Assembly: GCF_000013605.1 (NCBI RefSeq)
Contig: NC_007908.1
Coordinates: 3,596,001 to 3,660,000 of the forward strand
DNA length: 64,000 nt
Source of the DNA: Rhodoferax ferrireducens T118
GTDB lineage: Bacteria; Pseudomonadota; Gammaproteobacteria; Burkholderiales; Burkholderiaceae_C
Direction: 5' to 3'
Part shown: piece by piece, positions 3,899-63,591 of the stretch
Layout of the letters: each line of letters opens with the position of its first letter
How positions within the stretch are numbered: the first letter of the stretch is position 1
Notes under the pieces: model-generated
What the model was told of the DNA's origin: nothing
Database searches by the model: none
Seen by the model: only the letters and a program-made list of their open reading frames with translations
Position numbers and translations under genes: made by a program

Positions 3899-3944
3899 TG
3901 GAGCGCCCGTTGTTATTGCGCAAGCAGCTATAAACTAAATAGCT
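3899..3944 (-). repeat. Dispersed repeat copy R1 (intergenic, at ispH stop)
   Basis: On the minus strand this has the family geometry: an 18-base arm AGCTATTTAGTTTATAGC (3927-3944, inverted repeat GCTAT/ATAGC), 20 bases, then a degraded terminal block GCGCTC in place of GGGCTAGA. Its first bases overlap the ispH stop codon TAG. It fills most of the gap between ispH and the downstream ATPase gene. Confidence 0.75.
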
Positions 3945-4905
3945 AACCCAGGTCCTCGGTATCCTTCAGACGCAAGCCCTTGGGCAGCGGAAACTTGACG
4001 GTCTCCGGCGTGCCAGCCATCTTGCGCACCGACACCGCGCCCAGTGCCTTGATGCGGTCAATCACCTGGCGTACCAGGATGTCGGGGGCCGATGCACCGG
4101 CGGTCAAACCCACGTGCTGGCGACCCTCAAACCACTGCGCCTGCAATTCGTCCGGGCCATCGACCATGTGGCTTTCGGTGCCGAGCTTGCGCGCCACTTC
4201 ACGCAGCCGCCTGCTGTTGGAGCTGGTCGGGCTGCCCACCACGATCACGACATCAACCAGCGGGCTCATCACTTTGACGGCGTCCTGCCGGTTTTGCGTG
4301 GCGTAGCAAATGTCTTGCTGCTTGGGCTCGCGCACCTTCGGAAACCGTGCCTTGATGGCCGCCGCAATGTCAGCCGCGTCGTCCACACTGAGCGTGGTTT
4401 GCGTCACCACCGCCAGTTTGTCGGTCTGCGCCGGGTTGATGCGCGCCACGTCAAGCACACTCTCCACCAGATGAATGCCGCCCTCTAACTGTCCCATGGT
4501 GCCTTCGACCTCGGGGTGTCCCTTGTGGCCGATCATGATGAACTCATAGCCTTCCTTATGCAGTTTGGCCACTTCCACATGCACCTTGCTCACCAGCGGA
4601 CAGGTGGCATCGAACACCTGAAAACCCCGCGCGGCAGCCTCCAGCTGCACCGCCCGGCTCACGCCATGGGCCGAAAATATGAGCGTAGCCCCCGCAGGCA
4701 CGTCATCCAGTGCTTCGATAAATATAGCACCTTTGGCCTTCAGGTCATTCACCACGTAGGTGTTGTGCACAATTTCATGGCGCACGTAGATGGGAGCACC
4801 AAATTTCTGCAGCGCTCGCTCCACAATCTCGATGGCCCGGTCCACACCGGCGCAAAAGCCGCGCGGCTCGGCCAGCAGGATGTCCTGGGGTGCGCTGGCT
4901 GTCAC
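3943..4905 (-). CDS. ispH: 4-hydroxy-3-methylbut-2-enyl diphosphate reductase
   Basis: IspH catalyses the last step of the MEP isoprenoid pathway, reducing HMBPP to IPP and DMAPP with a [4Fe-4S] cluster in the cytoplasm. The 320-residue product has the three cluster cysteines in family contexts: Cys18 (PRGFCAGVDRAI), Cys102 (DATCPLVSKVH) and Cys200 (QDICYATQNRQ). It also has the HEIVHN and HKGHPEVEGTMGQ segments that bind substrate. The length is normal. The start overlaps the stop of the FKBP gene by 4 bases (ATGA), the common fkpB-ispH arrangement of proteobacteria. The stop codon lies in the edge of repeat copy R1. Confidence 0.97.
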   Translation of the reverse strand: MTASAPQDILLAEPRGFCAGVDRAIEIVERALQKFGAPIYVRHEIVHNTYVVNDLKAKGAIFIEALDDVPAGATLIFSAHGVSRAVQLEAAARGFQVFDATCPLVSKVHVEVAKLHKEGYEFIMIGHKGHPEVEGTMGQLEGGIHLVESVLDVARINPAQTDKLAVVTQTTLSVDDAADIAAAIKARFPKVREPKQQDICYATQNRQDAVKVMSPLVDVVIVVGSPTSSNSRRLREVARKLGTESHMVDGPDELQAQWFEGRQHVGLTAGASAPDILVRQVIDRIKALGAVSVRKMAGTPETVKFPLPKGLRLKDTEDLG

Positions 4906-5366
4906 AGAATTCCGATCACATGCACCTCAAAGGTCACGGCACGACCGGCCAGCGGGTGGTTGAAGTCAAACAACACGGCGTCGCCCTTCTCATCGCTTCT
5001 GAAATCCTGTACCGAACCGGCAAACTTGCCCTTGCCGTCCGGCGTGGGGAACTGCAGCACATCGCCCACCGCATACTCTTCATCGGGCTCACCCATGTCG
5101 ATCAGTTCCTGGCGCGCCAGCCATTGCAGCATGGCCGGGTTGTGCGGGCCAAATGCGGTGCCCGCAGGCAGCTCAAACGTGGTGTGGGTGCCTTCGGGCA
5201 GGCCCAGCAAATAAGCCTCCAGCGTGGGCGAGAGCTCACCGGTGCCCAGCGTCAGCGTGGCGGGTTTGCCGTCAAAGGTGTTGATCACATCACCGACCGG
5301 CCCGGCCATGCGGTAATGCAGCGTGAGGAAAGATCCCGGTTGAACCGTGGCAAGTGTTGAAGTCAT
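4902..5366 (-). CDS. fkpB: FKBP-type peptidyl-prolyl isomerase, SlpA/FkpB type
   Basis: This 154-residue protein is an FKBP-type prolyl isomerase with the SlyD/SlpA insert-in-flap layout. The N-terminal part has HYRMAGPVGDVINTFDGKPATLTLG and GELSPTLEAYLLGLPEG. The insert region ends with DFNHPLAGRAVTFEVHVIGI, the closing strand typical of SlyD-like proteins. The metal-binding His-rich tail of SlyD is missing, so SlpA/FkpB fits better. There is no signal peptide, so it acts in the cytoplasm as a folding helper. It is the first gene of the pair with ispH (4-base overlap). Confidence 0.93.
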   Translation of the reverse strand: MTSTLATVQPGSFLTLHYRMAGPVGDVINTFDGKPATLTLGTGELSPTLEAYLLGLPEGTHTTFELPAGTAFGPHNPAMLQWLARQELIDMGEPDEEYAVGDVLQFPTPDGKGKFAGSVQDFRSDEKGDAVLFDFNHPLAGRAVTFEVHVIGIL

Positions 5367-5449
5367 ATCTGAGTCCTGGTTTCAAGTCTGGAGAAGCCCA
5401 CAAAACCACATTCTGAAGGGATGCGGTGTTTGGCGAATAAACTGCTGCG

Positions 5450-5477
5450 ATTGTAAAAGCCTGCGCCAGGGCACAAA
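5450..5477 (-). promoter_or_regulatory. Possible promoter of fkpB-ispH
   Basis: On the minus strand a good -10 hexamer TACAAT (5450-5455) follows a weak -35-like TTTGTG (5472-5477) with a 16-base spacer, about 85 bases before the fkpB start. Only the -10 is close to consensus, so this is a tentative call. Confidence 0.3.
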
Positions 5478-5541
5478 CCAAGCCATGCGCTTGACCGCAC
5501 CCCAAACGCGCCAATTGGCGACAAAGACGCCAGGCACCGCG

Positions 5542-11246: not shown

Positions 11247-11260
11247 GCGACAGTGACGCC

Positions 11261-11665
11261 TTAGTCGTGCGGATTGCGCATCAAGTCTGCGGTCTTGAAG
11301 AACGCCTCCCGCAGCTGACTGCGTAACGCGTCGGGCACGCCGGTCTCGCCCATCGCCTGATCCATGCAGGCCAGCCATTGGTCGCGTTCAAGCGTGCCAA
11401 TCTTGAACGGCAGATGGCGACGCCGCAGGCGCGGGTGGCCAAAGCGCTCCGCATAGTGTTGCGGCCCGCCGAGCCAGCCGCACAAGAACCAGAACAACCT
11501 TTGCCGGGCATCGTCGAGCACGTTGCCATGCGCCGCACGCACCGCCCGGTAGCTCGGCTCCCGGTCCATCAGGTCGTAAAAACGCTCCACCAATGCCTGT
11601 ACCTTGGCTTCACCGCCGATCTGGTCGAACGGCGTATCAGCAACGGGTTTTTTCTCGATGTTCAT
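11261..11665 (-). CDS. Group II truncated haemoglobin
   Basis: This 134-residue cytoplasmic protein is a 2-on-2 globin of group II (trHbO). It shows DQIGGEAKVQALVERFYDLM at the A/B helices, FLCGWLGGPQHYAERFGHPRLRRRH around the E-F region with the proximal histidine, and the G8-type tryptophan in RDQWLACMDQAM. Such globins bind O2 and NO and are linked to oxygen delivery or detoxification of nitric oxide and peroxide. It is a single gene, convergent with smr. Its upstream region is occupied by repeat copy R2, so any promoter must lie in or before the repeat. Confidence 0.92.
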   Translation of the reverse strand: MNIEKKPVADTPFDQIGGEAKVQALVERFYDLMDREPSYRAVRAAHGNVLDDARQRLFWFLCGWLGGPQHYAERFGHPRLRRRHLPFKIGTLERDQWLACMDQAMGETGVPDALRSQLREAFFKTADLMRNPHD

Positions 11666-11667
11666 AG

Positions 11668-11723
11668 TAAAACTAGCCTCTAGCCCCCGTAGTTACTTCA
11701 TAGTATGCTACCAATTATATAGC
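11668..11723 (-). repeat. Dispersed repeat copy R2 (intergenic, full length)
   Basis: This full copy on the minus strand has the arm TGCTATATAATTGGTAGC (11706-11723), exactly 20 bases, then GGGCTAGAGGCTAG at 11672-11685. It fills the gap between the stop of the FtsX-type permease (11726) and the start of the truncated haemoglobin (11665) almost completely. The low GC content of the arm contrasts with the neighbouring genes. Confidence 0.88.
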
Positions 11724-11725
11724 AT

Positions 11726-14245
11726 CTACTGTGCCGTCCGCCGCAGTGTCTCCACCACCGGGCGGCGCAACACGTCACGCAGACCCCACCAGCCGGCCGC
11801 CAGCGCCAGCAGCGCACCACTCAGGGACCCCAGCAGCGGCACCCAGAGCGAGACGATCCAGTCAAACTCAAACACATAGCGCGCCAGTGCCCAACCGACC
11901 GCGCTGGCGACGATGGAGGCCAGAAAACCGGCCAGCAAGCCCACGCCGATCAGCTCGATCCGTTGCACCTGGCGCAGCAGGCTGCTTTTGGCGCCGACGG
12001 CGCGCATGATGGCAAATTCACGGGCGCGCTCCTCGCGCGTGGCGGTCACGGCGGCAAACAGCACCACCAGGCCGGCCGCCAGGGTAAAGGCAAACAAGAA
12101 CTCCACCGCGCCAATCACCTGATCGAGCACGCGCTGCACCTGCGCCAGCGTGGCCGTCATGTCGACGCTGGTGATGTTGGGGAAAGCGCGCACCAGGGTG
12201 TTGTCAAAACCAGGTGTGGCTGGCGCCTTGAAGGCGCTCATGAAGGTGCTGGGCACATCGGGCAGTGTACTCACCGGGTACATGACAAAAAAATTGGCCC
12301 GCATCGAGCCCCAGTCCACTTTGCGCAGGGAGGTGATTCTGGATTGAATCTGCTGCCCGCCGACGTCAAAGTTCAGGCTGTCGCCGATCTTGAGACCCAG
12401 TGTTTTGGCAATCCCTTCTTCCACGCTGATGGCGCCGGGCTCCTCTTCAATCCAGCGACCGGCCACCAATTCATTCTGAGCCGGCTTCTTCGCGCTGTTG
12501 GACAGGTTGAACTCGCGGTCCACCAGATGTTTGGCGCGGTCGTCTGCATAGTCGTCGGGTGTCACCGCCCGGCCGTTGATCGCCACCAGACGGCCTCGAA
12601 TCATGGGATACCAGTCAAATTTGCTCACCCCCGCAGCGCGCAGGGCGGCCCCGAACGCATCGCCCTGCTCGGGCATGACGTTGATGACAAAGCGGTTCGG
12701 CGCGTCCAACGGCGTGGCCTGGCGCCAACTGTTGATCAGGTCGGTGCGCAACAACACCAGCAGCACCAGCGCCAGCAAGCCGAGCGCCAGCGCGCTGACC
12801 TGCACCACGGCATACGCCGGACGAGCCGAAATCTGCCGCATGGCCAGAATCACGGCGCGCGGCGCGGTGCGCTCGTTGACCACACGGCGCAGCAGCACGA
12901 CCGCGCCCCAGCTCAAGACCGCAAACAGCACGGTGGCCGCAGCAAAGCCCCCCACCGCGATCAGACCGAGCTTGACATCACTGCTGGCGGCCAGCAGCAG
13001 CACCGCAAAACCAGCCACGCCCAGACCCAGCACACCCAGCGAGGCGGGTTTGAGGTTGCCCACATCCCGGCGGATCACGCGCAGCGGCGGCACCTGCGCC
13101 AGTTGCAGGACCGGCGGCAGGCCGAAGGCCAGCAACAGCGTCAAGCCCATGCCCAGGCCGAAAATGACCGGCCACAGGCCCGCCGGCGGCAGCGCCGCAG
13201 CCACCAGACCGGCCAACAGCAGCACAAACGCGTAATGCACCGCGTAGCCGATGGCCACCCCGAGCGAACTGGCCAGCAAGCCGATCAGTGTGAACTCAAA
13301 GGCATAACTGGCGGCAATGCTGCGCTGGCTCAAACCCAGCACGCGCAGCATGGCGCAATCGTCGAGGTGCTTGGCCGCAAAACCACGCGCTGCCAGCGCC
13401 ACCGCCACGGCACTCAAGAGCGCCGCCAGCAAGGCAATCAGATTGAGGAACTTCTCGGCGCGCGCCAGTGTCTGCCCCAGTTCCGGGCGCCCGCCTTGCA
13501 GCGACTCCACGCGCACGCCGCGCACCTGGGGCTTTTTGACCTCAAGCTGGGCCCAGTCGACAAACGTAGTAACGCTTTTGTCGGCGCCAGCAACGGCCAG
13601 GCGGTAAGTCAGACGGCTGGCGGGCTGGATCAGTCCGGTGGCCGCCACATCGGCGCGGTTGATCATGACGCGCGGCGCAAAATTCATGAAACCAGCACCC
13701 CGGTCCGGCTCGCTGACAATAATTTTGGCAATGCGCAAACTGCTGTCACCCAGCAGCAAGGCATCTCCCATCTGCGCCCGAAGAGCATCCAGCACGGGCG
13801 CGTCGATCCAGGCCTCGCCGGGCTGGGGAATGGTGGCGGTGATGCTGCCGGGTCCACCCGGCTGGCTGCTGACCCGCAAACTGCCGCGCAGCGGATAACC
13901 GGGCTCCACCACCTTCAGGGCCACCAGTTTGCTGGCGCCACCCAGGGCCTGCGGCGCGCGCGCCATGGTCGGGAAAGCCAGCGTCTGCACCACGTCCAGG
14001 CCCAGCGCGCGCGCTTTCTCGGCAAACGCGGCGGGTGTGGCGTTGTCGCTTGAAATGAGCGCATCACCGCCAAGCAGCTGCCGCGCATCGCGTTGTAGAC
14101 CGCCCTTGAGCCGATCGGCAAAGAAACCGACCGCGGTCAAGGCCGCCACCGCCAGCGTGACCGCCACGATCAGCAATCGAAGTTCACCGGAGCGCAGGTC
14201 GCGCCATAAAGAGCGAGCGCCAAGGCGCCAGAAAGAAATGTTCAT
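11726..14245 (-). CDS. FtsX-family ABC transporter permease (YbbP-like)
   Basis: This 839-residue inner-membrane protein has the YbbP layout. It has an N-terminal TM helix (LIVAVTLAVAALTAVGFFADRL) and a large periplasmic domain. A first FtsX four-helix unit lies around 260-480, followed by a second periplasmic domain and a C-terminal FtsX unit (LFAFTLAAGLVVLFAAVTATREERAREFAIMRAVGA). Such permeases work with a small ATPase (YbbA/LolD type) to move hydrophobic substrates or drive mechanical work in the periplasm. No ATPase is adjacent here, so its partner must be encoded elsewhere. Its stop lies 3 bases from repeat copy R2. Confidence 0.88.
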   Translation of the reverse strand: MNISFWRLGARSLWRDLRSGELRLLIVAVTLAVAALTAVGFFADRLKGGLQRDARQLLGGDALISSDNATPAAFAEKARALGLDVVQTLAFPTMARAPQALGGASKLVALKVVEPGYPLRGSLRVSSQPGGPGSITATIPQPGEAWIDAPVLDALRAQMGDALLLGDSSLRIAKIIVSEPDRGAGFMNFAPRVMINRADVAATGLIQPASRLTYRLAVAGADKSVTTFVDWAQLEVKKPQVRGVRVESLQGGRPELGQTLARAEKFLNLIALLAALLSAVAVALAARGFAAKHLDDCAMLRVLGLSQRSIAASYAFEFTLIGLLASSLGVAIGYAVHYAFVLLLAGLVAAALPPAGLWPVIFGLGMGLTLLLAFGLPPVLQLAQVPPLRVIRRDVGNLKPASLGVLGLGVAGFAVLLLAASSDVKLGLIAVGGFAAATVLFAVLSWGAVVLLRRVVNERTAPRAVILAMRQISARPAYAVVQVSALALGLLALVLLVLLRTDLINSWRQATPLDAPNRFVINVMPEQGDAFGAALRAAGVSKFDWYPMIRGRLVAINGRAVTPDDYADDRAKHLVDREFNLSNSAKKPAQNELVAGRWIEEEPGAISVEEGIAKTLGLKIGDSLNFDVGGQQIQSRITSLRKVDWGSMRANFFVMYPVSTLPDVPSTFMSAFKAPATPGFDNTLVRAFPNITSVDMTATLAQVQRVLDQVIGAVEFLFAFTLAAGLVVLFAAVTATREERAREFAIMRAVGAKSSLLRQVQRIELIGVGLLAGFLASIVASAVGWALARYVFEFDWIVSLWVPLLGSLSGALLALAAGWWGLRDVLRRPVVETLRRTAQ

Positions 14246-21134: not shown

Positions 21135-21758
21135 TCAGGCCAGCATGTCGAACCCCTGCGTCTCCACCGCCACAAAAGCGCGGGTCAGCCCGGCCAGCGC
21201 CGCGTAGAACCGCGCTTTGGGGTGCTGCTGCAGGTCGTCACACAGCGCCAACACCCAGGGGTGCAGGTAGCTCGTAAAGAAGGCGCGCTGGCGCGTCAGG
21301 TTGGCCACCGCCACATCGTCGCCGGCAATCAGATAACGCATCACCTCGCACAGGTAGGCGAAGTGGTCTTCGGTATCAAGCATGCCGTCACCGCGCGCCA
21401 GCCCCAAGCTGCTCAACTCGGTGCGCAAGCGCGCCAGCGGCTTTTCGTTGAGGAAACCACTCAGAAAATGGGACGCGTACAGGTAGACCTCGGGCTTGCC
21501 GACACCGCCAAACAGGGCGTCGTATTCATCTTGAATCGCGCAATCTGTCATCTCGCGCGAGAGCCCCACCAGGGCGCGCCAGGGTTCTTCCAGAAAAGCC
21601 CCAGCCGCTGGTGCCTCGGTCACGGCCAGGCGCAGTTTAGCTACTAATTCAGTAGCTGGAGGCGCATAATACATAAGGGCTAGAAGCCCATAGAGCTCTG
21701 AACGCGCGGTTTCTTCGTCAAGCGCGCTGCTGGGCAGTGTGTCGGAGGTGGGCAACAT
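21135..21758 (-). CDS. TorD-family molybdoenzyme chaperone
   Basis: This 207-residue cytoplasmic protein belongs to the TorD/DmsD all-helical chaperones that hold Tat-targeted molybdoenzymes until cofactor insertion. Typical segments are ELYGLLALMYYAPP near the N-terminus, EYDALFGGVGKPEVYLYASHFLSG in the middle (the EYxxLF...P.YAS signature) and DHFAYLCEVMRYLI. The start at 21758 lies 2 bases after the stop of the upstream ferredoxin. Residues about 23-40 are encoded by repeat copy R3. Its likely client is the exported formate dehydrogenase alpha subunit downstream. Confidence 0.88.
   Translation of the reverse strand: MLPTSDTLPSSALDEETARSELYGLLALMYYAPPATELVAKLRLAVTEAPAAGAFLEEPWRALVGLSREMTDCAIQDEYDALFGGVGKPEVYLYASHFLSGFLNEKPLARLRTELSSLGLARGDGMLDTEDHFAYLCEVMRYLIAGDDVAVANLTRQRAFFTSYLHPWVLALCDDLQQHPKARFYAALAGLTRAFVAVETQGFDMLA
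21639..21690 (+). repeat. Dispersed repeat copy R3 (inside torD-like gene)
   Basis: The plus strand has arm AGCTACTAATTCAGTAGC (21639-21656, perfect inverted repeat GCTACT/AGTAGC with a 5-base loop), exactly 20 bases, then GGGCTAGAAGCCC from 21677. It lies antisense within the chaperone gene and encodes residues about 23-40. The A/T-rich arm stands out from the surrounding GC-rich codons. Confidence 0.85.
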
Positions 21759-21760
21759 GG

Positions 21761-23887
21761 TCAGAGGTCGGTGATTTTGGTTTCGTTGTCGGCTGAATAA
21801 ATGTCGATGACGCGGCAGTCCGCGCACATTTTCAAGCGGGCAAGCGCCTCGCCCTGGAACATGCTGTGGCTGCTCAGCTTGCCGAGCATGGCTTCAATCG
21901 CCTTGAGCGTGCCAAACGGCTTGCCGCAGCGCACACAGGCGTAGGGCTGCATCGCGTTGAGCACCACGGCTTCGTTGCGTTGCGGACTCAGGCTCAAGCG
22001 CGGCAGGAGCGTCAGGGCCTGTTCCGGGCAGGTCTTGACGCACAAGCCGCATTGCACGCAATTTTTCTCAATCAACCGCAGCTCCAGGGCCTGCGGGTTG
22101 TCTTGCAGCGCGCTGGCCGGGCAGGCGTTGACGCAGCTCAGGCACAGGGTACAGGCATCTTTGTTGATGACGAGAGCCCCCAGCGGCGAGCCGGTGGCGG
22201 GCAGCGCAACCACGTCGGTTTTAACCGGCGCATGTTCGATCAAATGGCTGAGCACCAGCTCCAGCGTGGCGCGCTTGTCAGCCTGCACCGCAAAGCCGGC
22301 CGTGCGGGCGACTGTCTGCGCCGGGGCCGCCTGCAAGTCGTGGTCGAGCGCTGCCAGGTCACGCGCGTCTTTGACCTGAAGCAGGCGGAAATGCTCGCCT
22401 TGGTAACCCAACCCCGACAGAATGGCCTGCGCCACTGCCATCTGGCCCTCGAGTGCCGCACGGTATTGCGGCGCTTCTTCGTCCGTCAGCAGCACCCACA
22501 GCTGCGACGCACCATAACAAATGGCAGACAGCCAGACCTCCAGCCCCAACGACGAGGTGTGCCACAGCGCCAGCGGCAAGACCCGGGCCGGAACGCCGTG
22601 CGTGCCTGTTTTGCTGGCACGCTCCAGCTGCGCGGCGCGCCCCAGATCGCCCAGCAGGCGCGCGCCCGCGCCCTGGCTGTGCAGCAGCAGCGCGGCATTC
22701 TTGCCGCCACTGCGGCTGTAGGTCGCCAGCAGGGTCTTGAGCTTGACGCCTTGATCGCTGGCGCGCGGGTAGGCAAAACCCATGGCGCCGGTCGGGCACA
22801 CCGTGCTGCAGGTGCCGCAACCAATGCACAGGTTCGGGTTGACCTTGATTTGCTGGCGACTGCGGTCGCTTTCAATCGCCGAGGCCGAGCAGACGTCGAT
22901 GCAGGCGGTGCAACCCGCTTTCTCGTTGCGACTGTGCGCACACAGCTTGGGTTTGTAGACAAAAAAGCGCGGCTTCTCGAACTCGCCGACCAAGCCGCGC
23001 AACTGCAACAGCGTCGTGAGGCTCCGCCCATCCCAGCGCAAATAACCCTGCGGCAAGGCGTGCTGGCTGAAGGCGGGCGTGGCGCGCAAATCCAGCACCA
23101 GGTCAAAGGTCTCACGCAAAGCTTCAGGTTCGCGCTGGAAGTCAATCGCCCCGGCGACCTGGCAGACCTTGACGCAGGCACGGTGCGCCTGGCAGGCGCT
23201 CAAATCAACCTGGTAATCCAGCCCAATGGCGTCTTCCGGGCAGACTGCCAGACAGGCGTTGCAGCGGGTGCATAAATCCAGATCAATCGGATTGCTGCGC
23301 AGCCACTGGAGTTCAAACGCCCCCAGCCAGCCGGTCAAGGACTGGATCTGCCCGCCCAGCACCGGGTAGCGTCGCTCCTGCGCCGCGCCCGCGTCGCCTG
23401 CACCTTGGGTGAACAAGGTCACGTCCAGCGCATCGCCCAGCAACTCGGCAGCGCGTTCTGCTGCGCCCAGCTCACCAATGATCAACAGCCGTCCGGCGCT
23501 TTTATAAGTCACCGTGGCCACCGGCTCGGGCTCGGGCAAATGGGCCAGCGCCAGCAGTGCGGCAATTTTGGGGCTGGCCTGCGCCGCGTCCCGGCTCCAG
23601 CCACCCGTTTCACGGATGTTGACGAAGCGCAGCGGCGCGTAGCCGGAAGGCGCGCGCGCCGCACCCGCCTGCGCGCTGCTGGCCTGCTCGGCCAGTTCGA
23701 CGAACAGCCGCTGTTCCTGGGTGCACGCCACCACCACCTCTTCTCCGGTCTGCACCGCTTGAAGAAAAGCACCCGCCTCACGGCGGCACAGGGTGGAGTG
23801 AAGCGTCAGGTTTTCATTCAGTGCCGCGCCCAGACTCCTGGCGTCCAGCGGCATGGTTTGGTTGCAGTCGCAAATCAGTGTGGTCAT
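21761..23887 (-). CDS. Multi-[4Fe-4S] ferredoxin-type protein of formate dehydrogenase locus
   Basis: This 708-residue soluble protein carries many Fe-S motifs: CTRCNACLAVCPEDAI, a C-x-ACVKVCQ group, CTACIDVC, CIGCGTCSTVCPTGA, CLSCVNACPASAL, CVQCGLCVKTCPEQAL and a C-terminal CVRCG...CADC site. It starts MTTLICDCNQTMPLD. A similar large ferredoxin-like protein accompanies DUF3305/DUF3306 and TorD in betaproteobacterial formate dehydrogenase loci, as I recall. It may shuttle electrons or help assemble the enzyme. ATG 23887 was chosen; it lies 74 bases inside the end of the DUF3306 gene, an unusually long overlap. Confidence 0.85.
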   Translation of the reverse strand: MTTLICDCNQTMPLDARSLGAALNENLTLHSTLCRREAGAFLQAVQTGEEVVVACTQEQRLFVELAEQASSAQAGAARAPSGYAPLRFVNIRETGGWSRDAAQASPKIAALLALAHLPEPEPVATVTYKSAGRLLIIGELGAAERAAELLGDALDVTLFTQGAGDAGAAQERRYPVLGGQIQSLTGWLGAFELQWLRSNPIDLDLCTRCNACLAVCPEDAIGLDYQVDLSACQAHRACVKVCQVAGAIDFQREPEALRETFDLVLDLRATPAFSQHALPQGYLRWDGRSLTTLLQLRGLVGEFEKPRFFVYKPKLCAHSRNEKAGCTACIDVCSASAIESDRSRQQIKVNPNLCIGCGTCSTVCPTGAMGFAYPRASDQGVKLKTLLATYSRSGGKNAALLLHSQGAGARLLGDLGRAAQLERASKTGTHGVPARVLPLALWHTSSLGLEVWLSAICYGASQLWVLLTDEEAPQYRAALEGQMAVAQAILSGLGYQGEHFRLLQVKDARDLAALDHDLQAAPAQTVARTAGFAVQADKRATLELVLSHLIEHAPVKTDVVALPATGSPLGALVINKDACTLCLSCVNACPASALQDNPQALELRLIEKNCVQCGLCVKTCPEQALTLLPRLSLSPQRNEAVVLNAMQPYACVRCGKPFGTLKAIEAMLGKLSSHSMFQGEALARLKMCADCRVIDIYSADNETKITDL

Positions 23888-24497: not shown

Positions 24498-25047
24498 GCT
24501 CACCCCCCGATTTTTTCTGGGTACTGACAGACGCGGGTTGGCCAAAGCGGTCGGTCAAGGCGCGAAAGCTCTCGGGCCGTTTGCGGCGCTTGAGCTCCAC
24601 CACATGGTGTTCATCCACAAACGCCTGCAGCCACGCCACCACCGGCGCTGGCGCCGGCACCTGCTCCACCGTCTCCTGTGCGTCCAGCCAGCGGCCGGCG
24701 TCGTAATAACTCAGGCTCACCATCTCGGGCTTGGCAATGGGCTCATCGCTGATGCTGGCCTCTTCTTCCATGCGCCACAACACAAACCAGCCCGGCGTTT
24801 GCGTGCTCGCGTTGAGGTGGTAGCCTTCGGCATCGTCCTTGAACAATTCAACCCTGTAGCCCGGATGCAGCCAGCGTTCTTCGCTATCGTTTTTATAGAG
24901 CAGACGGGGCGTGATGCCAAAACCGTCGTCCTGCATCACCACATCTGCGAGCTCCCAGCGCCAGGGCTGCCAGCGGCTGGACGGGCCAGTGGTTTTGACG
25001 CGTTGCATGACGACGGCGACTTCAATAGAGGGACGAAGGGTAGGCAT
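24490..25047 (-). CDS. DUF3305 protein of formate dehydrogenase locus
   Basis: This 185-residue cytoplasmic protein matches DUF3305: VAVVMQRVKTTGPSSRWQPWRWEL, RLLYKNDSEERWLHPGYRVELFKDDAEGYHLN and the PGWFVLWRM strand. The family pairs with DUF3306 in formate dehydrogenase loci; no activity is known. I chose ATG 25047 (MPTLRPSIEV); an in-frame ATG at 25059 adds four residues. It is the first gene of a four-gene block: DUF3305, DUF3306, ferredoxin, TorD. Confidence 0.87.
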   Translation of the reverse strand: MPTLRPSIEVAVVMQRVKTTGPSSRWQPWRWELADVVMQDDGFGITPRLLYKNDSEERWLHPGYRVELFKDDAEGYHLNASTQTPGWFVLWRMEEEASISDEPIAKPEMVSLSYYDAGRWLDAQETVEQVPAPAPVVAWLQAFVDEHHVVELKRRKRPESFRALTDRFGQPASVSTQKKSGGEHG

Positions 25048-30808: not shown

Positions 30809-32584
30809 TCAAACGATCTCCTGGGGAAAGTATTTCTGCACACAACGCACCGGATTGGGCGCAGCCTGGCCCAGGCCGCAAATGGACGCCTCTGCCATCA
30901 CCGCGTTCAAGTCCTCCAGCGTGGCGTTGTCCCACACCGGTGCTTCCATCAGACGCACGGCCTTGGCGGTGCCGACCCGGCACGGGGTGCACTGGCCACA
31001 ACTCTCAGCGGCAAAAAAACGCATGGCACTGAGCGCCGCATCACGCGCCCGGTCGAATTGGCTGAGCACAATCACCGCGGCCGAACCAATGAAACAGCCG
31101 TAGGGCTGAAGGGTGTCGAAGTCGAGCGGAATATGGTTCAGGCTGGCCGGCAGAATGCCGCCCGACGCACCGCCGGGCAGGTAGGCGTAAAGCGTGTGCC
31201 CGTCCAGCATGCCGCCGCAGTATTCGTCAATCAGCTCCTGCACCGTGATGCCGGCCGGCGCCAGCTTGACACCGGGCAGCTTGATGCGCCCGCTGACGCT
31301 GAAGGAGCGCAAGCCTTGACGCCCGTGGCGGCCAAAACTGCTGAACCACTGCGGGCCCTTTTCAACGATGTCACGCACCCAATAGAGCGTCTCAAAGTTG
31401 TGGACCAGCGTCGGTTTGCCAAACAGGCCCAGCTGCGCGACATAGGGCGGGCGCAGGCGCGGCTGGCCGCGTTTGCCTTCGATGCTCTCGATCATGGCGG
31501 ACTCTTCACCGCAGATATACGCGCCCGCGCCACGGCGCAGTTCGATGTAGGGCAGCGGACAGGGCGGATCGGCCTGCAGGGCCTCGATCTCTTGCGTCAA
31601 CATCTTGCGCGCGTCGTGGTATTCGTCGCGCAGATAGATGTAGCAGGCCTCGGTGCCCGCCACCTGGGCGGCGATCAGCATGCCCTCCAGAAAGCGATGC
31701 GGGTCGCGTTCCAGGTAGCTGCGGTCTTTGAAGGTGCCGGGCTCGCCTTCGTCGATGTTGACGGCCATGACACGCGGCGCGCTTTGCTCGCGCACGATGC
31801 GCCATTTGCGTCCGGCCGGAAAACCGGCACCACCCAAGCCACGCAGGCCCGCGTCCTCCAGGGCCGCCATCACGCCCTCCGCCGGCTCTTCACCATTCAC
31901 CACGGCGGCCGCCAGCGCGTAACCGGCGCGCTGCCGGTAGGCTTCTAACGATATCAAATTAATAGCATAGTGTGCAGTAAATGCGGGGGCTAGAGTCCTA
32001 TTTTGTATATATTCTGGCTTGTCCGGCAAGGCCACCTGGACCGCTTCAAGCACCGAAGCCGTCGTTGCATTCGGCACCGCCCGTTGCCCCACCAGCACGG
32101 CCGGCGCCTGCTCACAGCGCCCCAGGCACGGTGCAGCCATCACACGCACCGACGCCCCCAGCAACCCCGTCAGCCGCGCCAGCAAATCATCGGACCGCGC
32201 CATCGCGCAGCTCAGGCTGTCGCAGACCCGCACGGTCAGCGCCGCAGGGCTCTGGCCGTCGCGCATCACCTCGAAGTGGTGGTAGAACGTGGCCACCTCG
32301 AACACCTCTGCCATGGGCAGCTTCATGTCGCTGGCCAGCGCCACCAGATGGCGCTCGAACAGACCACGGTAGTGATCATTGAGCAGGTGCAGGTGCTCGA
32401 TCAACAGGTCGCTGCGATGGCCGCCAGGCGGTGGCACGCCAATCAGTGCGCGCAGTTCCTGCAGCGAGACATCGTCGGGCTGTCGGCCTTTGAGCTTTGA
32501 CACCCGTTGTGCCGTCCGGCGCAATTGATCCGGCGTCGCCAGGACCATTGGCCGACCGGGTGCAGTAATGGGCAAAGTGGGCAT
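30809..32584 (-). CDS. fdsB: NAD-dependent formate dehydrogenase beta subunit (NuoE-NuoF fusion)
   Basis: This 591-residue subunit passes electrons from FdsA to NAD+. Residues 15-185 form a NuoE-like thioredoxin fold with the [2Fe-2S] ligands Cys121, Cys126, Cys153 and Cys157 intact. Residues about 212-590 are NuoF-like, with GLRGLGGAGFPAGRKW and EGEPGTFKDR for FMN and NAD, ESCGQCTPC and ICGLG for a [4Fe-4S] cluster. No separate fdsG gene exists here, so the NuoE-like domain probably covers that role. The linker at about 195-212 is encoded by repeat copy R4. I chose ATG 32584; a TTG at 32620 would extend it. Confidence 0.9.
   Translation of the reverse strand: MPTLPITAPGRPMVLATPDQLRRTAQRVSKLKGRQPDDVSLQELRALIGVPPPGGHRSDLLIEHLHLLNDHYRGLFERHLVALASDMKLPMAEVFEVATFYHHFEVMRDGQSPAALTVRVCDSLSCAMARSDDLLARLTGLLGASVRVMAAPCLGRCEQAPAVLVGQRAVPNATTASVLEAVQVALPDKPEYIQNRTLAPAFTAHYAINLISLEAYRQRAGYALAAAVVNGEEPAEGVMAALEDAGLRGLGGAGFPAGRKWRIVREQSAPRVMAVNIDEGEPGTFKDRSYLERDPHRFLEGMLIAAQVAGTEACYIYLRDEYHDARKMLTQEIEALQADPPCPLPYIELRRGAGAYICGEESAMIESIEGKRGQPRLRPPYVAQLGLFGKPTLVHNFETLYWVRDIVEKGPQWFSSFGRHGRQGLRSFSVSGRIKLPGVKLAPAGITVQELIDEYCGGMLDGHTLYAYLPGGASGGILPASLNHIPLDFDTLQPYGCFIGSAAVIVLSQFDRARDAALSAMRFFAAESCGQCTPCRVGTAKAVRLMEAPVWDNATLEDLNAVMAEASICGLGQAAPNPVRCVQKYFPQEIV
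31949..32000 (+). repeat. Dispersed repeat copy R4 (inside fdsB)
   Basis: The plus strand has an arm ending AATTAATAGC (to 31966), exactly 20 bases, then GGGCTAGAGTCC from 31987. It is antisense in fdsB and encodes the peptide IQNRTLAPAFTAHYAINLI (about residues 193-211) between the NuoE-like and NuoF-like domains. Confidence 0.85.
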
Positions 32585-32688
32585 GGCCGACAAGCTAACC
32601 GACTTGGCAACGAATGGCAAGCCCAGTCTGCAACCGTTGACGCCACGCTGCCGGCGAGGGCAACCGGGCCTTCGTGAGCAGACCCTGA

Positions 32689-38354: not shown

Positions 38355-40457
38355 ATGCCACGCCAACTCTTCGTTACCACCGCCCTGCCCTACGCCAATG
38401 GCAATTTCCACATTGGCCACATCATGGAGTACATCCAGGCTGACATCTGGGTGCGCTACCAGCGGATGATGGGCAACGCGGTGCATTTTGTCTGCGCCGA
38501 TGATTGTCATGGCGCGCCGATCATGATTGCCGCTGAAAAGGTCGGTAAAACACCGCAGCAGTTTGTGGCCGACATTGCCAGCGGCCGCAAACCGTATCTG
38601 GATGGTTTCCATATTGGTTTTGACAACTGGCATTCCACCGACGGCGCGGAAAACCACGAACTGGCGCAGGCGATATACCGTGATCTCAAGGCCGCTGGCT
38701 TGATCAGCACGCGTGTCATCGCCCAGTTTTTCGACACCGAGAAGAACATGTTTTTGCCGGACCGCTTCATCAAGGGCGAATGTCCCAAGTGCGGCGCCAA
38801 AGACCAGTACGGCGACAACTGCGAAGAATGCGGCGCGGTGTACAGCCCGACCGAGTTGAAGAACCCGTACTCGGCCTTGAGCGGTGTCACCCCTGTGCTA
38901 CGCGATTCGGAACATTACTTTTTCAAATTGTCGGACCCGCGATGTGTTGAATTTCTGGAACAGTGGACGACGGACACCAACCCGCGCGGGCAGTCGCGCC
39001 TGCAAGCCGAGGTCTACAACAAGATCAAGGAATGGCTGCTGCCCGATGCCGAGGGCAAGCGTGACCTGGGCGACTGGGACATCTCCAGAGACGCACCCTA
39101 CTTTGGCATCGAAATTCCCGATGCGCCGGGCAAATATTTTTATGTCTGGCTGGATGCCCCCATCGGTTACCTGGCCGCGCTGAAAAACCGTTTTATCAAG
39201 CTGGCCGGCGACGCCACAACGGGCGCGCAGCATTACGACGACTTCATGGCCGACCCGGCGACCGAGCAGTACCACTTCATCGGCAAGGACATCATCACTT
39301 TCCACACCCTGTTCTGGCCCGCGATGCTGCATTTCAGCGGCCGCAAAACGCCCAACGCGGTGTTTGTGCACGGCTTTTTGACGGTCAACAGCGAGAAGAT
39401 GAGCAAGAGCCGCGGCACCGGCCTGGACCCGCTCAAGTACCTGAGCCTGGGCATGAACCCGGAGTGGCTGCGCTACTACCTGGCGACCAAACTGACGGCA
39501 CGCAACGAGGACGTGGAGTTCAGCCCGGAAGATTTCATGGCGCGGGTCAACAGCGACCTGGTCGGCAAATACATCAACATCGCGTCACGCGCGGCCGGCT
39601 TTATTGCCAAGCGTTTTGGCGGCCAGCTGGGCGTCATTTCAGACGACGGGGCGGCGCTGCTGAAACAGATTCAGATTGAGCGCACCAGCATCGAGCAACT
39701 TTATGAGGCGCGCGAATTTGCCAAGGCCTTGCGCGAGACCATGCTGCTGGCCGATCGGGTGAATGAGTATGTGGATGCCAACAAGCCCTGGGAACTGGCC
39801 AAGCAAACCGGTATGGAGACACGCCTGCACGATGTCTGCACGGTCTGCATCGAAGCCTTCCGGGCACTCACGGCCTACCTCAAGCCGGTGCTGCCCCTGC
39901 TGGCGGCGCAGGTGGAAGTTTTCCTCAATATCGAGCCGCTCTCCTTTGCCAGCGTCAGTCAGACGCTGGGTGCGGTCCACCGCATTGGGGACTACAAGCA
40001 CCTGATGCAGCGCGTCGATATCAAGCAACTTGAGGCATTGTTTGAGGCGCAAGCCCCCGTGGAACCTGATAATATTGCTACAGAATCAGTAGCACCTGGC
40101 GGAGAAGGCATGGCCCCGGTGATCAGCATGGATGACTTCAGCAAGATCGACTTGCGTATTGCCAAGATCGTCAATTGCGAGACAGTTAGTGGCTCTACCA
40201 AGCTCTTGCGCCTGACTTTGGATGTAGGCGAAACCAACACGCGCAACGTCTTCAGCGGCATTGCAAGCAGCTACCAACCCGAGCAGCTGATCGGCAAACT
40301 CACCGTCATGGTGGCCAACCTGGCGCCGCGCAAAATGAAGTTCGGTATCAGCGACGGCATGGTGCTGGCCGCCAGCCATGCCGACGAAAAAGCCCAGCCC
40401 GGCATTTATATCCTGGAGCCGTTTGCCGGGGCCCAACCGGGCATGCGGGTGCATTGA
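38355..40457 (+). CDS. metG: Methionyl-tRNA synthetase
   Basis: This 700-residue class-I synthetase charges tRNA-Met. It has the HIGH-type motif in [14 protein letters not shown], a zinc knuckle ([17 protein letters not shown]), the KMSKS loop ([11 protein letters not shown] near residue 345) and an anticodon-binding domain. A C-terminal OB-fold tRNA-binding domain (about 590-700) dimerises the enzyme. The linker before that domain contains a half copy of the dispersed repeat (R6). The length is normal for the long bacterial form. Confidence 0.97.
40076..40093 (+). repeat. Dispersed repeat half-copy R6 (metG linker)
   Basis: Only the 18-base arm TGCTACAGAATCAGTAGC is present. The 20-base spacer and GGGCTAGA block expected after it are not recognisable. 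It encodes ATESVA in the flexible linker between the synthetase body and the C-terminal tRNA-binding domain. Confidence 0.55.
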
Positions 40458-45669: not shown

Positions 45670-45671
45670 CC

Positions 45672-47168
45672 ATGACAACGGCACAAGCCCTGGCACTTTT
45701 CCCCTTGCGCGATATTGCCGCGACCAGCCTGCAGGAGCTGATGCAGCTGTGCGGCCAGCGCCTGCAAGCCGGGGAGCGCTTGCTGACGCTCTTTGGCAGA
45801 CCGGCGCCGGAACTTGGGGTGAACATCATCGTGGTCACTGCGGTGCTGCAGCCCGCGCAGGGTGCGCTGGTCATCCTGCGCGCCACGGCACAGCGCGGCG
45901 AACACTACCGCTGCCTCACCGCCCAACATCCGGCGGCGCAGATTTTTGAGCGCGAACTGTGGGAACAGACGGGTTTGTTCCCGGACGACCACCCCTGGCT
46001 CAAACCCGTTCGCTTTGAGGGCGAGCGCCAGCAGCGCATGCTTGAGTACCCTTTCTTCAAGGTGCGCGGGCAGGAGGTGCATGAAGTCGGTGTCGGACCG
46101 ATTCACGCCAGCGTGATCGAGCCCGGGCATTTCCGCTTCATGTGCCTGGGTGAAAATGTTCATCACCTGGAGATTCAGTTGGGTTACCAGCACCGCGGCG
46201 TGGAAGGCCTGCTGCTGCGCCGTCCGGTGTGGCAGCTCACCCCGTTGGTGGAGTCGATTTGCGGCGACTCGGCCGTGGCCTACGCCTGGGGCTATGGCGC
46301 CGCGCTGGAATTGATGTCAAATCAGCCTGTAGCCCCCGCCATACAGGCCTCACGTGCTATCGCTTTAGAGATGGAGCGCATCGCCATGCACCTGGCCACG
46401 CTGGGTGGCATGGCCACTGACATTGCCTTTTTGCAGGGGGGTGCCACCTACGGCCGCCTGCGCACCGCCATCATCAACGCCAGCCAGCGTGTCTGCGGCA
46501 ACCGCTTTGGCCGCGGCTGGATTCGACCCGGTCAGGCCAAACCGCTGTCTGAGGCACTGCAGCAGGACCTGACGCGGACGCTGAGGGCGTTTGCCCCGGA
46601 CTTTACGCAAATCAACCAGTTGATGCTGGCCGCGCGCAGCGTCCAGGCCCGCTTGCACGGCACCGGCACGGTCAGTCAGCAGGCCGCGCTGGACCTGGGT
46701 CTGACCGGGCCGGTGGCGCGCGCCAGTGGCGTGGCGCTGGATCACCGCACACAATGGCCCGGTGCGGCCTACGGCCACGCGCCACTGCCCATGGTGACCG
46801 AGCCCGACGGCGACTGCTGGGCGCGCATGCGGCTGCGCATGCGCGAGGTCGATGCCTCACTGGCCTGGTTGCTCCAACTGCTGGGCGACACCACGCTGAA
46901 CTTGAGCCAAGCGGGTCAAGCCCAGAGCAGCACCCCGGCCGCACTGCAGGCTGAAGCACTGTGCGTGTCGCTGGTGGAGGGAACGCGCGGGCCGGTGCTG
47001 CAGGTGCTGGAGACATCGGCCAAAGGTGAACTGCGGCACTACAAGGTGCAGGACCCCTCAACAGCCAACTGGTTTGGTTTGGCTTTTGCCATGCGCGACA
47101 ACGCCATTTCTGACTTTCCCATCTGCAACAAGAGTTTTGACCTCTCCTACTGCGGCAATGATTTGTAG
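45672..47168 (+). CDS. Ehr/Hyf-like large subunit (NuoC-NuoD fusion), cluster 1, incomplete [NiFe] ligands
   Basis: This 498-residue soluble subunit fuses a NuoC-like domain (1-115) to a NuoD/hydrogenase-large domain. True group-4 hydrogenases have CxxC near the N-terminus and CxxC at the C-terminus. Here the first motif is SICGDS (Cys197 kept, second position Ser200). The C-terminus ends FPICNKSFDLSYCGNDL, with Cys485 kept, Ser488 at the second position and an extra Cys494. Loss of two ligands makes a normal [NiFe] site unlikely. Residues 216-234 are encoded by repeat copy R5. It precedes the ferredoxin-small-subunit fusion. Confidence 0.85.
   Translation: MTTAQALALFPLRDIAATSLQELMQLCGQRLQAGERLLTLFGRPAPELGVNIIVVTAVLQPAQGALVILRATAQRGEHYRCLTAQHPAAQIFERELWEQTGLFPDDHPWLKPVRFEGERQQRMLEYPFFKVRGQEVHEVGVGPIHASVIEPGHFRFMCLGENVHHLEIQLGYQHRGVEGLLLRRPVWQLTPLVESICGDSAVAYAWGYGAALELMSNQPVAPAIQASRAIALEMERIAMHLATLGGMATDIAFLQGGATYGRLRTAIINASQRVCGNRFGRGWIRPGQAKPLSEALQQDLTRTLRAFAPDFTQINQLMLAARSVQARLHGTGTVSQQAALDLGLTGPVARASGVALDHRTQWPGAAYGHAPLPMVTEPDGDCWARMRLRMREVDASLAWLLQLLGDTTLNLSQAGQAQSSTPAALQAEALCVSLVEGTRGPVLQVLETSAKGELRHYKVQDPSTANWFGLAFAMRDNAISDFPICNKSFDLSYCGNDL
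46318..46373 (-). repeat. Dispersed repeat copy R5 (inside cluster 1 large subunit)
   Basis: On the minus strand the block TAGC (46356-46359), exactly 20 bases, then GGGCTACAGG (from 46335) and GATTTGA match the family. It encodes residues about 216-234 (SNQPVAPAIQASRAIALEM) of the large subunit on the plus strand. The paralogue in cluster 2 has the same number of residues across this stretch. Confidence 0.8.
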
Positions 47169-53690: not shown

Positions 53691-53758
53691 TCTTGAGCTG
53701 AAGTGCGGGCGCCATGGGAGACGGCTTGGAGAGGCTCGGTTTGCGCCGCTGGATGCGC

Positions 53759-55830: not shown

Positions 55831-55834
55831 CAGC

Positions 55835-57289: not shown

Positions 57290-57291
57290 GG

Positions 57292-60919: not shown

Positions 60920-61021
60920 GGCGCGCTAGTCAGGAAAACAGGTCGAATGCATAGGATGCCAATGGTACTCGCTGCAATTCAGCTGATAGCGCCTGCGGCG
61001 CTGGCGCCCGATGCGCCGACC

Positions 61022-61591: not shown

Positions 61592-61635
61592 GGGAATGAG
61601 GCTCCTGAGTTGCGCCAGATTGTAAGCGTGACACC

Positions 61636-61688
61636 TGCTATCAATTCAGATGAATTGACGTAATAGGGTCGCGGGCTGGAGGCCTGTT
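61636..61688 (+). repeat. Dispersed repeat copy R7 (between dcd and RHH-like gene)
   Basis: The plus strand has TGCTATCAATTCAGATG (a one-base-shorter arm), exactly 20 bases to GGGCTGGAGGCC (from 61673). It lies between divergent genes, where both promoters must be. Confidence 0.75.
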
Positions 61689-61738
61689 TCTTTGCGAATC
61701 CGCAAGAACTTCGCCACCGCGTGACGCGATGATGAACC

Positions 61739-62137: not shown

Positions 62138-62196
62138 CGAACAGCCCAGGCCAGGCGCCGGGGTCACCGGGGCCGGACCGGTCCGAGGCCAGAAAT

Positions 62197-62250
62197 AAAT
62201 TCAAAATCAATAGCTACAAACCCAATAAAGACGGTGGCTAGAGGCCAAAA
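62197..62250 (+). repeat. Dispersed repeat copy R9 (between RHH-like gene and guaD)
   Basis: The plus strand has an arm ending AAAATCAATAGC (to 62214), exactly 20 bases, then TGGCTAGAGGCC (from 62235). It fills the gap between two convergent genes and ends 4 bases before the guaD stop. Confidence 0.85.
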
Positions 62251-62253
62251 GGC

Positions 62254-63591
62254 TTAAATGTTTTGAGAGATAACCGTCTTTTCCACCAGTCGGTCATCGC
62301 CCAGCACGATCATGGCAAACAGCAGCTCATCGAGACTGTGGGCGCTCGCGGTCCGGCGCGCCAGCAAAGGCGTGGCCTGCGGGTTCAAGACCACGAAATC
62401 GGCTTCGCAACCGGGCTGCAGATTGCCCACCGCTGGCGCACCGTGTCGGCCGTCCAGCCCCAGCGCCTGCGCTGCGCCCAAGGTGTGTTGCCACCACAAA
62501 TGCTGCGGCGCCAGCGACAAGCCCGCTTTGGTCTGCCCTTCGCGGCCCACGTAGTAGGCCGCCAGCATGGTGTGAAACGGACTGAAACTGGTGCCCCCGC
62601 CCACATCGCTGGCCAGGCCGTAGGAGAAGCCGGCCCGGTCGGCCGCCGCATAGTCAAAAAAGCCGCTGCCCAGAAACAGATTGCTGGTCGGGCAAACCGC
62701 GGCGCTGGCACCGGTGTCGCGCATCAGGGCGCGATCCATCTCATCGAGGTGAAGGCAGTGAGCGTAAATTGCGCGCGGGCGCATCAGGCCGAAATCGGCA
62801 TAGGTGCCCAGGTAGCTGCGCGAGGCGGGAAACAACGCGCGCGCCCATTTGATCTCATCGAGGTTCTCCGCCACATGCGACTGAATCCAGACCCCGGGAT
62901 ATTTGGTCGCCAACACGCCGGCCCCGCGCAATTGGGCCGCTGAACAACTGGGCGCAAAACGCGGCGTGATGGCATAACCCAGACGGCCCCTGCCATGCCA
63001 TTTTTGCAGCAAGGCCTCGGAGTCGATCAAGCTTTGCTCGGTCGCATCCAGCGTCCCGTCGGGTGCGGCGCGGTTGAGCAGCTCGGCCGGGGCATGGCGG
63101 TCCATCAGGCACAGCCCGGTGATCAGGCGCAGACGCCGATGCAGCGCCGCGGTGAACAGCGCGTCGACCGATTCGGCGTGTGCGGTGGCAAACGCCAGCG
63201 CCGTCGTGACGCCGTTGCGCAACAGTTCCGCTATGAAAAATGTAGCTTCTTGTGCACTGTATTCGGGGGCTGAGAAGCGTTTTTCCTCGGGAAATGTGTA
63301 CTTCTCCAACCACGGCAACAAACCATCGGCGGGTGAGCCGATGACCTTGGTCTGCGGAAAGTGGATATGCAGGTCCACAAAGCCGGGGGCGATGATGCGC
63401 CCCGGCAGGTGCTCGATCTCCACACCAGGGACGCGGTCCTTCAGCTCCCGGTACGGACCCACCGCCTGCACCACCTGCATGCCGGCGCCATTGGGGCCCA
63501 CGACCAGCAGACCGTCTTCTTCGAAAACAGCCGCGTGGCGTGGCTCGCGCTCGGGGGCGAAACGCAGAATGGCGGCGCGGTAGGCTTTCAT
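62254..63591 (-). CDS. guaD: Guanine deaminase
   Basis: This 445-residue zinc hydrolase deaminates guanine to xanthine for purine salvage or breakdown. The metal motif FVDLHIHFPQ, MDRHAPAELL, ITPRFAPSCS, VQSH-type segment WIQSHVAENLDEI, YAHCLHLDEMD and GLASDVGGGTSFS are all in place. The residues 104-121 (KRFSAPEYSAQEATFFIA) are encoded by repeat copy R8, yet the family register is unbroken. Beside it is a BMP-family binding protein, which may bring purine nucleosides or bases. Confidence 0.94.
   Translation of the reverse strand: MKAYRAAILRFAPEREPRHAAVFEEDGLLVVGPNGAGMQVVQAVGPYRELKDRVPGVEIEHLPGRIIAPGFVDLHIHFPQTKVIGSPADGLLPWLEKYTFPEEKRFSAPEYSAQEATFFIAELLRNGVTTALAFATAHAESVDALFTAALHRRLRLITGLCLMDRHAPAELLNRAAPDGTLDATEQSLIDSEALLQKWHGRGRLGYAITPRFAPSCSAAQLRGAGVLATKYPGVWIQSHVAENLDEIKWARALFPASRSYLGTYADFGLMRPRAIYAHCLHLDEMDRALMRDTGASAAVCPTSNLFLGSGFFDYAAADRAGFSYGLASDVGGGTSFSPFHTMLAAYYVGREGQTKAGLSLAPQHLWWQHTLGAAQALGLDGRHGAPAVGNLQPGCEADFVVLNPQATPLLARRTASAHSLDELLFAMIVLGDDRLVEKTVISQNI
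63229..63282 (+). repeat. Dispersed repeat copy R8 (inside guaD)
   Basis: The plus strand has arm CGCTATGAAAAATGTAGC (63229-63246), exactly 20 bases, then GGGCTGAGAAGC (from 63267). It is antisense in guaD and encodes about residues 104-121. Confidence 0.8.

Follow-up and report, generated by a model that had tools for sequence, protein, structure and literature searches.

What kind of process can place the same long DNA motif some hundreds of times on a bacterial chromosome, partly inside enzyme genes, and hold its parts at a single distance? The question is raised by a stretch of 64,000 nucleotides from Rhodoferax ferrireducens T118 (C2:3596001-3660000, referred to below as the window), whose genome comprises 4.97 Mb in two contigs. 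A sequence-only reading of the window had described a dispersed repeat of nine copies, R1 to R9, built from an 18-base arm, a gap of 20 bases that is constant in the eight full-length copies, and an 8-base core. It had offered selection on structure or a copying unit as explanations.

The answer favored here is that the element, as a class, is a recognition site that evolved in place and is locked in its geometry (probability about 0.8). Where homologues can be compared, several proteins keep their length despite in-gene copies, and the element would therefore be a recognition tag and not a jumping repeat. As to function, self-DNA recognition in natural transformation is proposed tentatively, at somewhat less than even odds, by analogy with known uptake signals.

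A Fixed Geometry

A profile of 67 bp, reaching from -40 to +26 around the core GGGCTAGA, was trained on 29 copies from the first 1.3 Mb of the chromosome. They come from 30 loci with a strict match to TAGC-N{8,36}-GGGCTAGA; locus L033, which holds the same element as L032, was left out. Because all training loci lie in the first 1.3 Mb, the window copies are absent from the training set. The chromosome was sampled in 40 evenly placed 20-kb pieces (800 kb), with genes called by a simple caller of our own (coding fraction 0.82). The main control was the reversed, non-complemented sequence; a permuted-profile control is weaker and was not relied on.

At a threshold of at least 12 bits, the sample contains 101 copies, five of them also training copies, and the reversed control contains none. 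The strict pattern matches 142 times in the whole genome, a few of these being second counts of one element that start at an earlier TAGC, compared with 15 times for the backwards pattern. The repeat noticed in the window is real and stands out clearly from control sequence.

The unit is about 67 bp long, and GGGCTAGAG is followed in it by a conserved A/T-rich tail. Its consensus, taken from the 60 sampled copies that are not fully in-gene, is TTTGCTATTAATTTAATAGC TACTTACGCATATTACACGG GGGCTAGA GGCCGATTTGATATAAAAA, with 59.4 bits in total. The conserved blocks are TGCTA, TAGCT, ACGGGGGCTAGAG, ATTT, and a terminal A/T tract.

The spacer was examined by scoring left and right blocks apart, each with at least 8 bits, at spacers of 12 to 28. 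It measures 20 nt in 86 of the 87 block pairs of the sample and 24 nt in one, with none at any other length in this range. In the window all five pairs have a spacer of 20, the rest of the range (12-19 and 21-28) being empty, and the reversed controls have no pairs. The constant 20-base gap of the first reading is thus borne out. Copies this divergent, if freely decaying, should show single-base insertions and deletions, so something probably holds the spacing.

Pairing of the arm or the center shows no such constraint. At the first variable arm pair, -33/-25, 29 copies have TA 11, CA 10, CG 4, TG 3, and GG 1 times, close to the expectation under independence. In the center of one genus-specific variant or “dialect”, GCGCTT...AAGCGC (89 copies), pairs occur near or below their expected count at the eight positions counted. 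Compensatory changes are evident neither in the arm (29 copies) nor in the palindromic center (89 copies, one dialect), and Rfam has no match at the element copies of the window or of loci L193, L201, and L220. A hairpin or RNA element was rejected on these grounds. Of the proposed selection on structure, the kept geometry stands and the hairpin does not, pairing in arm and center being near chance.

A regulatory RNA or terminator-like intergenic element acting on transcripts is accordingly very improbable. It would account for the 60 of 101 sampled copies that are intergenic or lie across gene ends, and for several copies that, by eye, directly precede a start codon. However, 23 of the 41 in-gene copies are antisense to their gene, and the results on covariation and Rfam speak against it as well.

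Copies Inside Genes

The sampled copies comprise 31 intergenic copies, 29 across a gene end, and 41 within genes. The last group mostly keeps to one reading frame per orientation (20 of 23 antisense and 15 of 18 sense copies). In a recoding test, which left out one of the 41 because it runs past the gene start, all 40 testable copies outscore the best of 200 synonymous recodings (means of 42.4 observed and -16.2 recoded). The same control was applied to R3 and R9 of the window.

Rickettsia palindromic elements (RPE) are in-frame insertions, and an insertion of this kind was the first idea for the present copies. It was set aside given two comparisons of the host proteins. The element resembles RPE in lying within coding sequences; unlike RPE, it leaves native protein length unchanged in the genes compared.

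The first comparison concerns the TorD/NarJ-like gene that holds R3. This gene has a match in 73 of 150 family genomes, of which the best 30 were aligned. All 30 encode one gap-free motif of the type DEETARAELYGLLAALYYAPP..ELLAQLRVAVT. The DNA under this motif is element-like in G000 (40.2 bits), G121 (31.0), and G031 (19.9, own genus dialect). It is borderline in G012 (0.5); in the other 26 it scores -27.9 to -58.1 with the profile of the T118 dialect.

The second comparison used Pfam domains in 38 proteins from 37 distinct genes. Of these proteins, 8 were chosen from strict loci and 30 from the sample, in which a further eight genes stayed outside the scan. In nine cases the element lies within an unlengthened domain, namely AMP-binding_C, adh_short, Competence, tRNA_U5-meth_tr, IspD, NAD_kinase_C, Carb_kinase, HSCB_C, and Acyl-CoA_dh_M (a match below the Pfam cut-off). 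Amino_oxidase, with a weak copy, is likewise unlengthened, as is HI0933_like after removal of a nested domain. Three element-bearing domains exceed their profile by 8 to 10 residues. The majority of the remaining in-gene copies fall in linkers or termini, or in proteins with no domain that could be used. Coding copies whose homologues are comparable thus appear in several cases to have been written into the native protein without added length.

Some host genes may be mentioned individually. A ComEC-type competence gene with the Competence domain (L218 10479-13004, minus strand) carries two copies of 56.8 and 55.5 bits. At L039 1-1599 (minus strand), a DsbD-type protein owes its N-terminal, signal-peptide-like segment to a strict copy. 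Copies at L214 17684-18196 and L195 4748-5746 likewise lie in N-terminal signal-like stretches, as judged by eye.

Distribution over the Genome

Extrapolated to 4.71 Mb, the sample gives a chromosome total of about 600 copies. The sampled copies lie on both strands (62 plus, 39 minus), and 7 of the 40 pieces contain none. Pieces of low GC content hold fewer copies (rho 0.43, p 0.005). Close neighbors are rarer than under random placement: only 1 of 68 gaps is shorter than 500 bp (1.5%), compared with 9.6% in simulation, and the coefficient of variation of the gaps is 0.71 versus 0.83 +- 0.07. Replication-linked orientation was considered, and none is evident when strand is compared with GC skew by eye.

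The second contig (C1; 257 kb, GC 54%) has no match of at least -5 bits, whereas about 32 copies would be expected from the density on the chromosome. Its reversed control gives four matches between -5 and 3.4 bits. Genes on C1 include those for TraI_2, for a VirB4/TraG-like ATPase, and for ParB. Since these belong to conjugation and partition, the contig is regarded as a conjugative plasmid; no plasmid record matches the first 20 kb. Depletion on a plasmid thus refers to one plasmid-like contig of this size in one genome.

These patterns bear on the closest rival to the uptake reading, a chromosome-organising site. Here the same in-place motif would be bound every few kb by a nucleoid, segregation, or replication-associated complex. 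The fixed geometry, the rarity of close neighbors, the absence from the plasmid-like contig, and the retention of copies at several orthologous sites would all suit such a site. Its occurrence on both strands with no evident GC-skew orientation would not, nor would the change of dialect between genera or the 211 of 299 family genomes without a pattern match. On balance this explanation is unlikely.

Copies in the Window

The profile supports eight of the nine copies of the first reading, with 16.8 to 66.8 bits on the best strand. Nine window matches reach at least 15 bits; the reversed window has one match at 5-10 bits and none higher. Four of the nine copies originally listed (R1, R2, R5, R6) are on the minus strand, and five of the eight supported ones (R3, R4, R5, R6, R9) lie within genes. 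In order of position, with open reading frames abbreviated as ORFs, the copies are:

3880..3946, minus strand: R1, 21.1 bits, at the end of a LytB/IspH-type ORF, 3943-4905, minus strand (Pfam)
11660..11726, minus strand: R2, 58.3 bits, filling the space that separates an FtsX-type permease gene from a bacterial globin gene (Pfam)
21637..21703, plus strand: R3, 40.2 bits, antisense in the TorD/NarJ-like chaperone ORF, 21135-21827, minus strand (Pfam)
24836..24902, minus strand: an extra weak copy absent from the first reading, 22.1 bits, the least certain part
31947..32013, plus strand: R4, 66.8 bits, antisense in ORF 30809-32620, minus strand
40030..40096, minus strand: R5, 28.5 bits, antisense in the metG ORF, 38355-40457, plus strand, within the linker that precedes the tRNA-binding domain
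46309..46375, minus strand: R6, 22.8 bits, antisense in a hydrogenase/complex-I 49-kDa-type ORF, 45453-47168, plus strand
61634..61699, plus strand: R7, right block only, scoring -6.0 bits with a spacer of 20 and lacking support as a full copy
62195..62261, plus strand: R8, 45.1 bits, at the end of an amidohydrolase gene
63227..63293, plus strand: R9, 16.8 bits, antisense in an amidohydrolase ORF, 62254-63591, minus strand

R7 reaches a two-block score of 11.2 at spacer 19, to which the left block contributes -3.4; it is at best a decayed copy. In R1, the 5' arm and spacer are good and the 3' half is decayed, while the orthologous copy in G351 has 36.1 bits. The extra weak copy has counterparts in G328 (20.4 bits) and G284 (18.6 bits).

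R4 lies in the linker between the two domains of its host, a fusion of a 2Fe-2S thioredoxin-like protein with a 51-kDa flavoprotein. Genome G328 has a copy at this site (63.8 bits). G214 has unrelated sequence there and no 67-base gap, an uncertain result because the alignment is poor. For metG, the 30 genomes of the genus that match best were compared; 14 of them, the present one included, have a recognizable R5 site. At the R6 site, G342 (31.7 bits) and G339 (39.1 bits) carry copies, and the alignment with G342, G339, and G121 is free of insertions and deletions.

At the R2 site before the globin gene, G342 and G351 carry three copies each, spread over about 1 kb:

L075 17462-18498: triple copies at the R2 site
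L076 16195-17496: triple copies at the R2 site

One copy here and three there imply that the copy number per site shifts between close relatives. In G342, a piece of metG has also been duplicated together with its element (44.7 bits; L074 9028-9161), some 7 kb from metG.

Dialects in Related Genera

By metG, close relatives are named Rhodoferax, followed by Polaromonas, Hydrogenophaga, and others. The first reading mentioned similar sequences in Comamonadaceae, and pattern searches of family genomes indeed found them. The fixed-distance pattern TAGC-N22-GCTAGAG-N-C matches at least once in 88 of 299 family genomes and in 50 of 141 genera; genomes with a count of zero may carry further dialects. 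The highest strict count is 200 copies, in G039. Read in reverse, the pattern is absent from the genome studied here and reaches at most 14 matches in others. In other families of the order, 7 of 195 sampled genomes have a single match, none of them element-like by eye.

The searches also show that the element varies by genus. Dialect searches fixed the distance from arm to core; when it was allowed to vary, element-like matches appeared almost only at 20, as judged by eye. The dialects are CACGGGGGCTAGAG (own), AGGCAATAAATACGCCGGCTAGAG (genus g32), GCGCTT-N7-AAGCGCTAGAG (g5, g86, g128), CATATTCCACGGGCGCTAGAG (G217), GCCGGC...GCCGGCTAGAG (g21), and a Polaromonas form ending in GCAAAAG. A Polaromonas-type pattern was tried on the whole family and set aside. 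It matches in 85 of 299 genomes, mostly a few times and with a similar reversed control, and is weak outside single genera. A strand bias was seen in G121, where strict GGGCTAGA matches number 32 forward and 5 reverse and GCTAGAG matches 50 and 37.

Parts of the element have been described before. According to the available text of Tong, Schliekelman and Mrazek 2017 (PMC5217627), the motif pair ATAGCT(N)22CAAAAG has 125 copies in Polaromonas naphthalenivorans (101 intergenic, 18 in genes, 6 overlapping), and Acidovorax ebreus has 114 copies of GCTTAT(N)5AAGCG (107 intergenic). Rhodoferax ferrireducens T118 has the most motif pairs (140) of the 569 genomes scanned there. Polaromonas loci L293 and L303 contain the first pair, and so does L305, with the same bases in arm and center. 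The second matches the center of the GCGCTT...AAGCGC dialect and occurs in 0 of 80 metG loci. On the basis of sequence and spacing, both pairs are identified here with dialects of the present element. In the text available, that study treats them as statistical pairs without function; it does not join them into a 67-bp element and has no dialects or in-gene evolution.

Written in Place or Copied

The alternative to evolution in place is copying, as in the copying unit of the first reading. The most alike pair among the 101 sampled copies shares 52 of 67 bases, with flanks sharing at most 30 of 60, and in several cases in-gene copies come without inserted length. The idea of a copying unit is not supported by these observations.

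A more specific version is an old dispersed repeat resembling repetitive extragenic palindromes (REP) or miniature inverted-repeat transposable elements (MITE). It would have been made by a REP-associated tyrosine transposase (RAYT), would have decayed since, and would survive in coding sequences as tolerated in-frame relics. The survey covered Y1_Tnp genes of the genome itself, 299 family genomes, and 50 RAYT loci. In this genome the sole Y1_Tnp gene, a RAYT relative (L093 1462-2166), lies between two copies on the same strand:

L093 1344-1410: flanking copy, 53.2 bits
L093 2150-2216: flanking copy on the same strand, 36.1 bits

Copies also lie at RAYT 3' ends in several genera, for example in G121, G205, G284, G099, and G120. 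Among another 20 genomes that bear the element, a copy stands at the RAYT gene in some and not in others. In several other genera, an element beginning GACAYATYAAA overlaps the RAYT 3' end.

The first reading had suggested looking for a REP-type transposase. One is indeed located between two copies. Its relatives, however, are present in 283 of 299 family genomes, mostly as a single copy and with or without elements, whereas the element pattern is present in 88. Moreover, no RAYT relative was found in the complete genome G270, despite 13 strict copies. RAYT 3' ends also bear, by eye, GGGGACAYAT/GGGGTCAGA repeats of their own. These resemble the GGGGWSAS inverted repeats given for TIRYT genes in the available text of PMC3733652. 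RAYT as the maker of the element was therefore set aside; because RAYT is common without elements and was not found in element-bearing G270, the linkage is taken as real but local, with no dependence seen across the family.

The element shares with REP/RAYT systems of the GTAG and CGTC families its many short, partly palindromic chromosomal copies, some of them in genes, and the RAYT-like gene between two copies in its own genome. It differs in that covariation of a hairpin is absent, comparable genes are not lengthened, and the presence of RAYT is not tied to it. Against a decayed REP- or MITE-like relic there is also the absence of near-identical copies and of spacers of 19 or 21 nt, which drift would yield. 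The relic is thus quite improbable, more so than a chromosome-organising site.

Several observations, the RAYT-like gene between two copies among them, nevertheless weigh against evolution in place or against an uptake function. Inserted copies would pass the recoding test too, so only the comparison of homologues decides between insertion and in-place change. In that comparison five element-bearing domains are over-long: DUF4131 by 20 residues, LNT_N by 19, Mur_ligase_M by 33, HAD_2 by 29, and GMC_oxred_N by 99. A few in-gene copies may therefore be insertions, as a relic would predict. In metG, several relatives without R5 have a linker eight residues shorter at the arm, so a deletion or insertion happened at the R5 site. 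Pairs of sampled copies sharing at least 48 bases number 40, compared with a mean of 4.5 in column shuffles, and similarity among copies is more uneven than in shuffles (standard deviation 4.77 versus 3.87). This may reflect uneven site strength or some shared descent. By our estimate, about 14 bits would be needed for about 600 sites and the element has 59; such an excess is commoner in repeats that share descent. Strict matches range from 0 (G162) to 200 (G039) within one genus, where zeros may hide other dialects. Finally, no receptor was found; ComEC, the gene checked as a discriminator, is uninformative because it occurs in 287 of 299 genomes.

A Possible Uptake Signal

Taken together, the findings ask for a process that works by in-place base change, enforces a single spacing, leaves a plasmid free of sites, and shifts dialect between genera. 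A long recognition sequence evolving in place would fit. A protein or complex might recognize the element in double-stranded form along some six helical turns, which comprise the 5' arm GCTA-N9-TAGC, the 20-nt spacer, the core GGGGGCTAGAGG, and the A/T tail. A selective or drive-like process would keep and multiply sites wherever local sequence permits, mainly in intergenic gaps and at tolerant coding positions. Intergenic copies, too, would have grown in place. Were a good site to favor the uptake or recombination of the fragment that bears it, mutations improving a site would spread, as for the DNA uptake sequences (DUS) of Neisseriaceae and the uptake signal sequences (USS) of Pasteurellaceae.

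The uptake signals of Pasteurellaceae are related to DUS, and USS have a short core with flanks. For DUS, the available text of PMC3630211 describes dialects and copies in permissive regions of core genes. The present element is like DUS and USS in its many chromosomal copies, some of them in genes, and in its dialects across related genera. It resembles them further in its absence from the one plasmid-like contig examined. Unlike DUS, which measure about 10-12 bp, it spans 67 bp with distant conserved blocks and 59 bits, a further point against the analogy. DUS and USS enhance uptake through a receptor, as the present element would do under this reading. No report of an uptake sequence in this family is among the literature matches listed.

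If the uptake reading is true, self-DNA recognition exists in another bacterial family; its signal exceeds known ones severalfold in length, and its several dialects would let the matching of signal and receptor be followed. If it is false, some 600 sites (extrapolated) of 59 bits at one spacing, partly in enzyme genes, would still imply a complex that reads DNA. The hosts form a bacterial group that is common in fresh water and soil. Because dialects differ between genera, the reader protein should be findable by genome comparison.

It is rather doubtful, though conceivable, that the element represents a new type of genomic recognition site. This would be a tripartite signal of six turns, read by a family-specific complex and written by point mutation at hundreds of sites in genes and between them, with genus dialects that change together over the whole chromosome. 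To our knowledge, it would then be the longest and most information-rich genome signature evolved in place.

Other Repeats and a Riboswitch

Among the literature matches listed for repeats in this group, Tong et al. 2017 and Hot et al. 2011 (PMC3110155) are pertinent; none of those listed for the motif string is related. The available text of Hot et al. describes the Betaproteobacterial repeat element (BRE) in Comamonadaceae including Rhodoferax and Polaromonas. BRE is about 90 bp long with a mean GC of 69% in Bordetella, is often tandem, and has some copies within coding sequences. It shares overlapping taxa and in-gene copies with the present element and is set apart from it by its described length and composition only. 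In the available text of the Rhodoferax ferrireducens genome paper (PMC2755013), an array of clustered regularly interspaced short palindromic repeats (CRISPR) is the sole repeat mentioned.

The window also contains a thiamine pyrophosphate (TPP) riboswitch (RF00059) at 3151-3248 on the minus strand, with 61.2 bits compared with a gathering threshold of 54.3.

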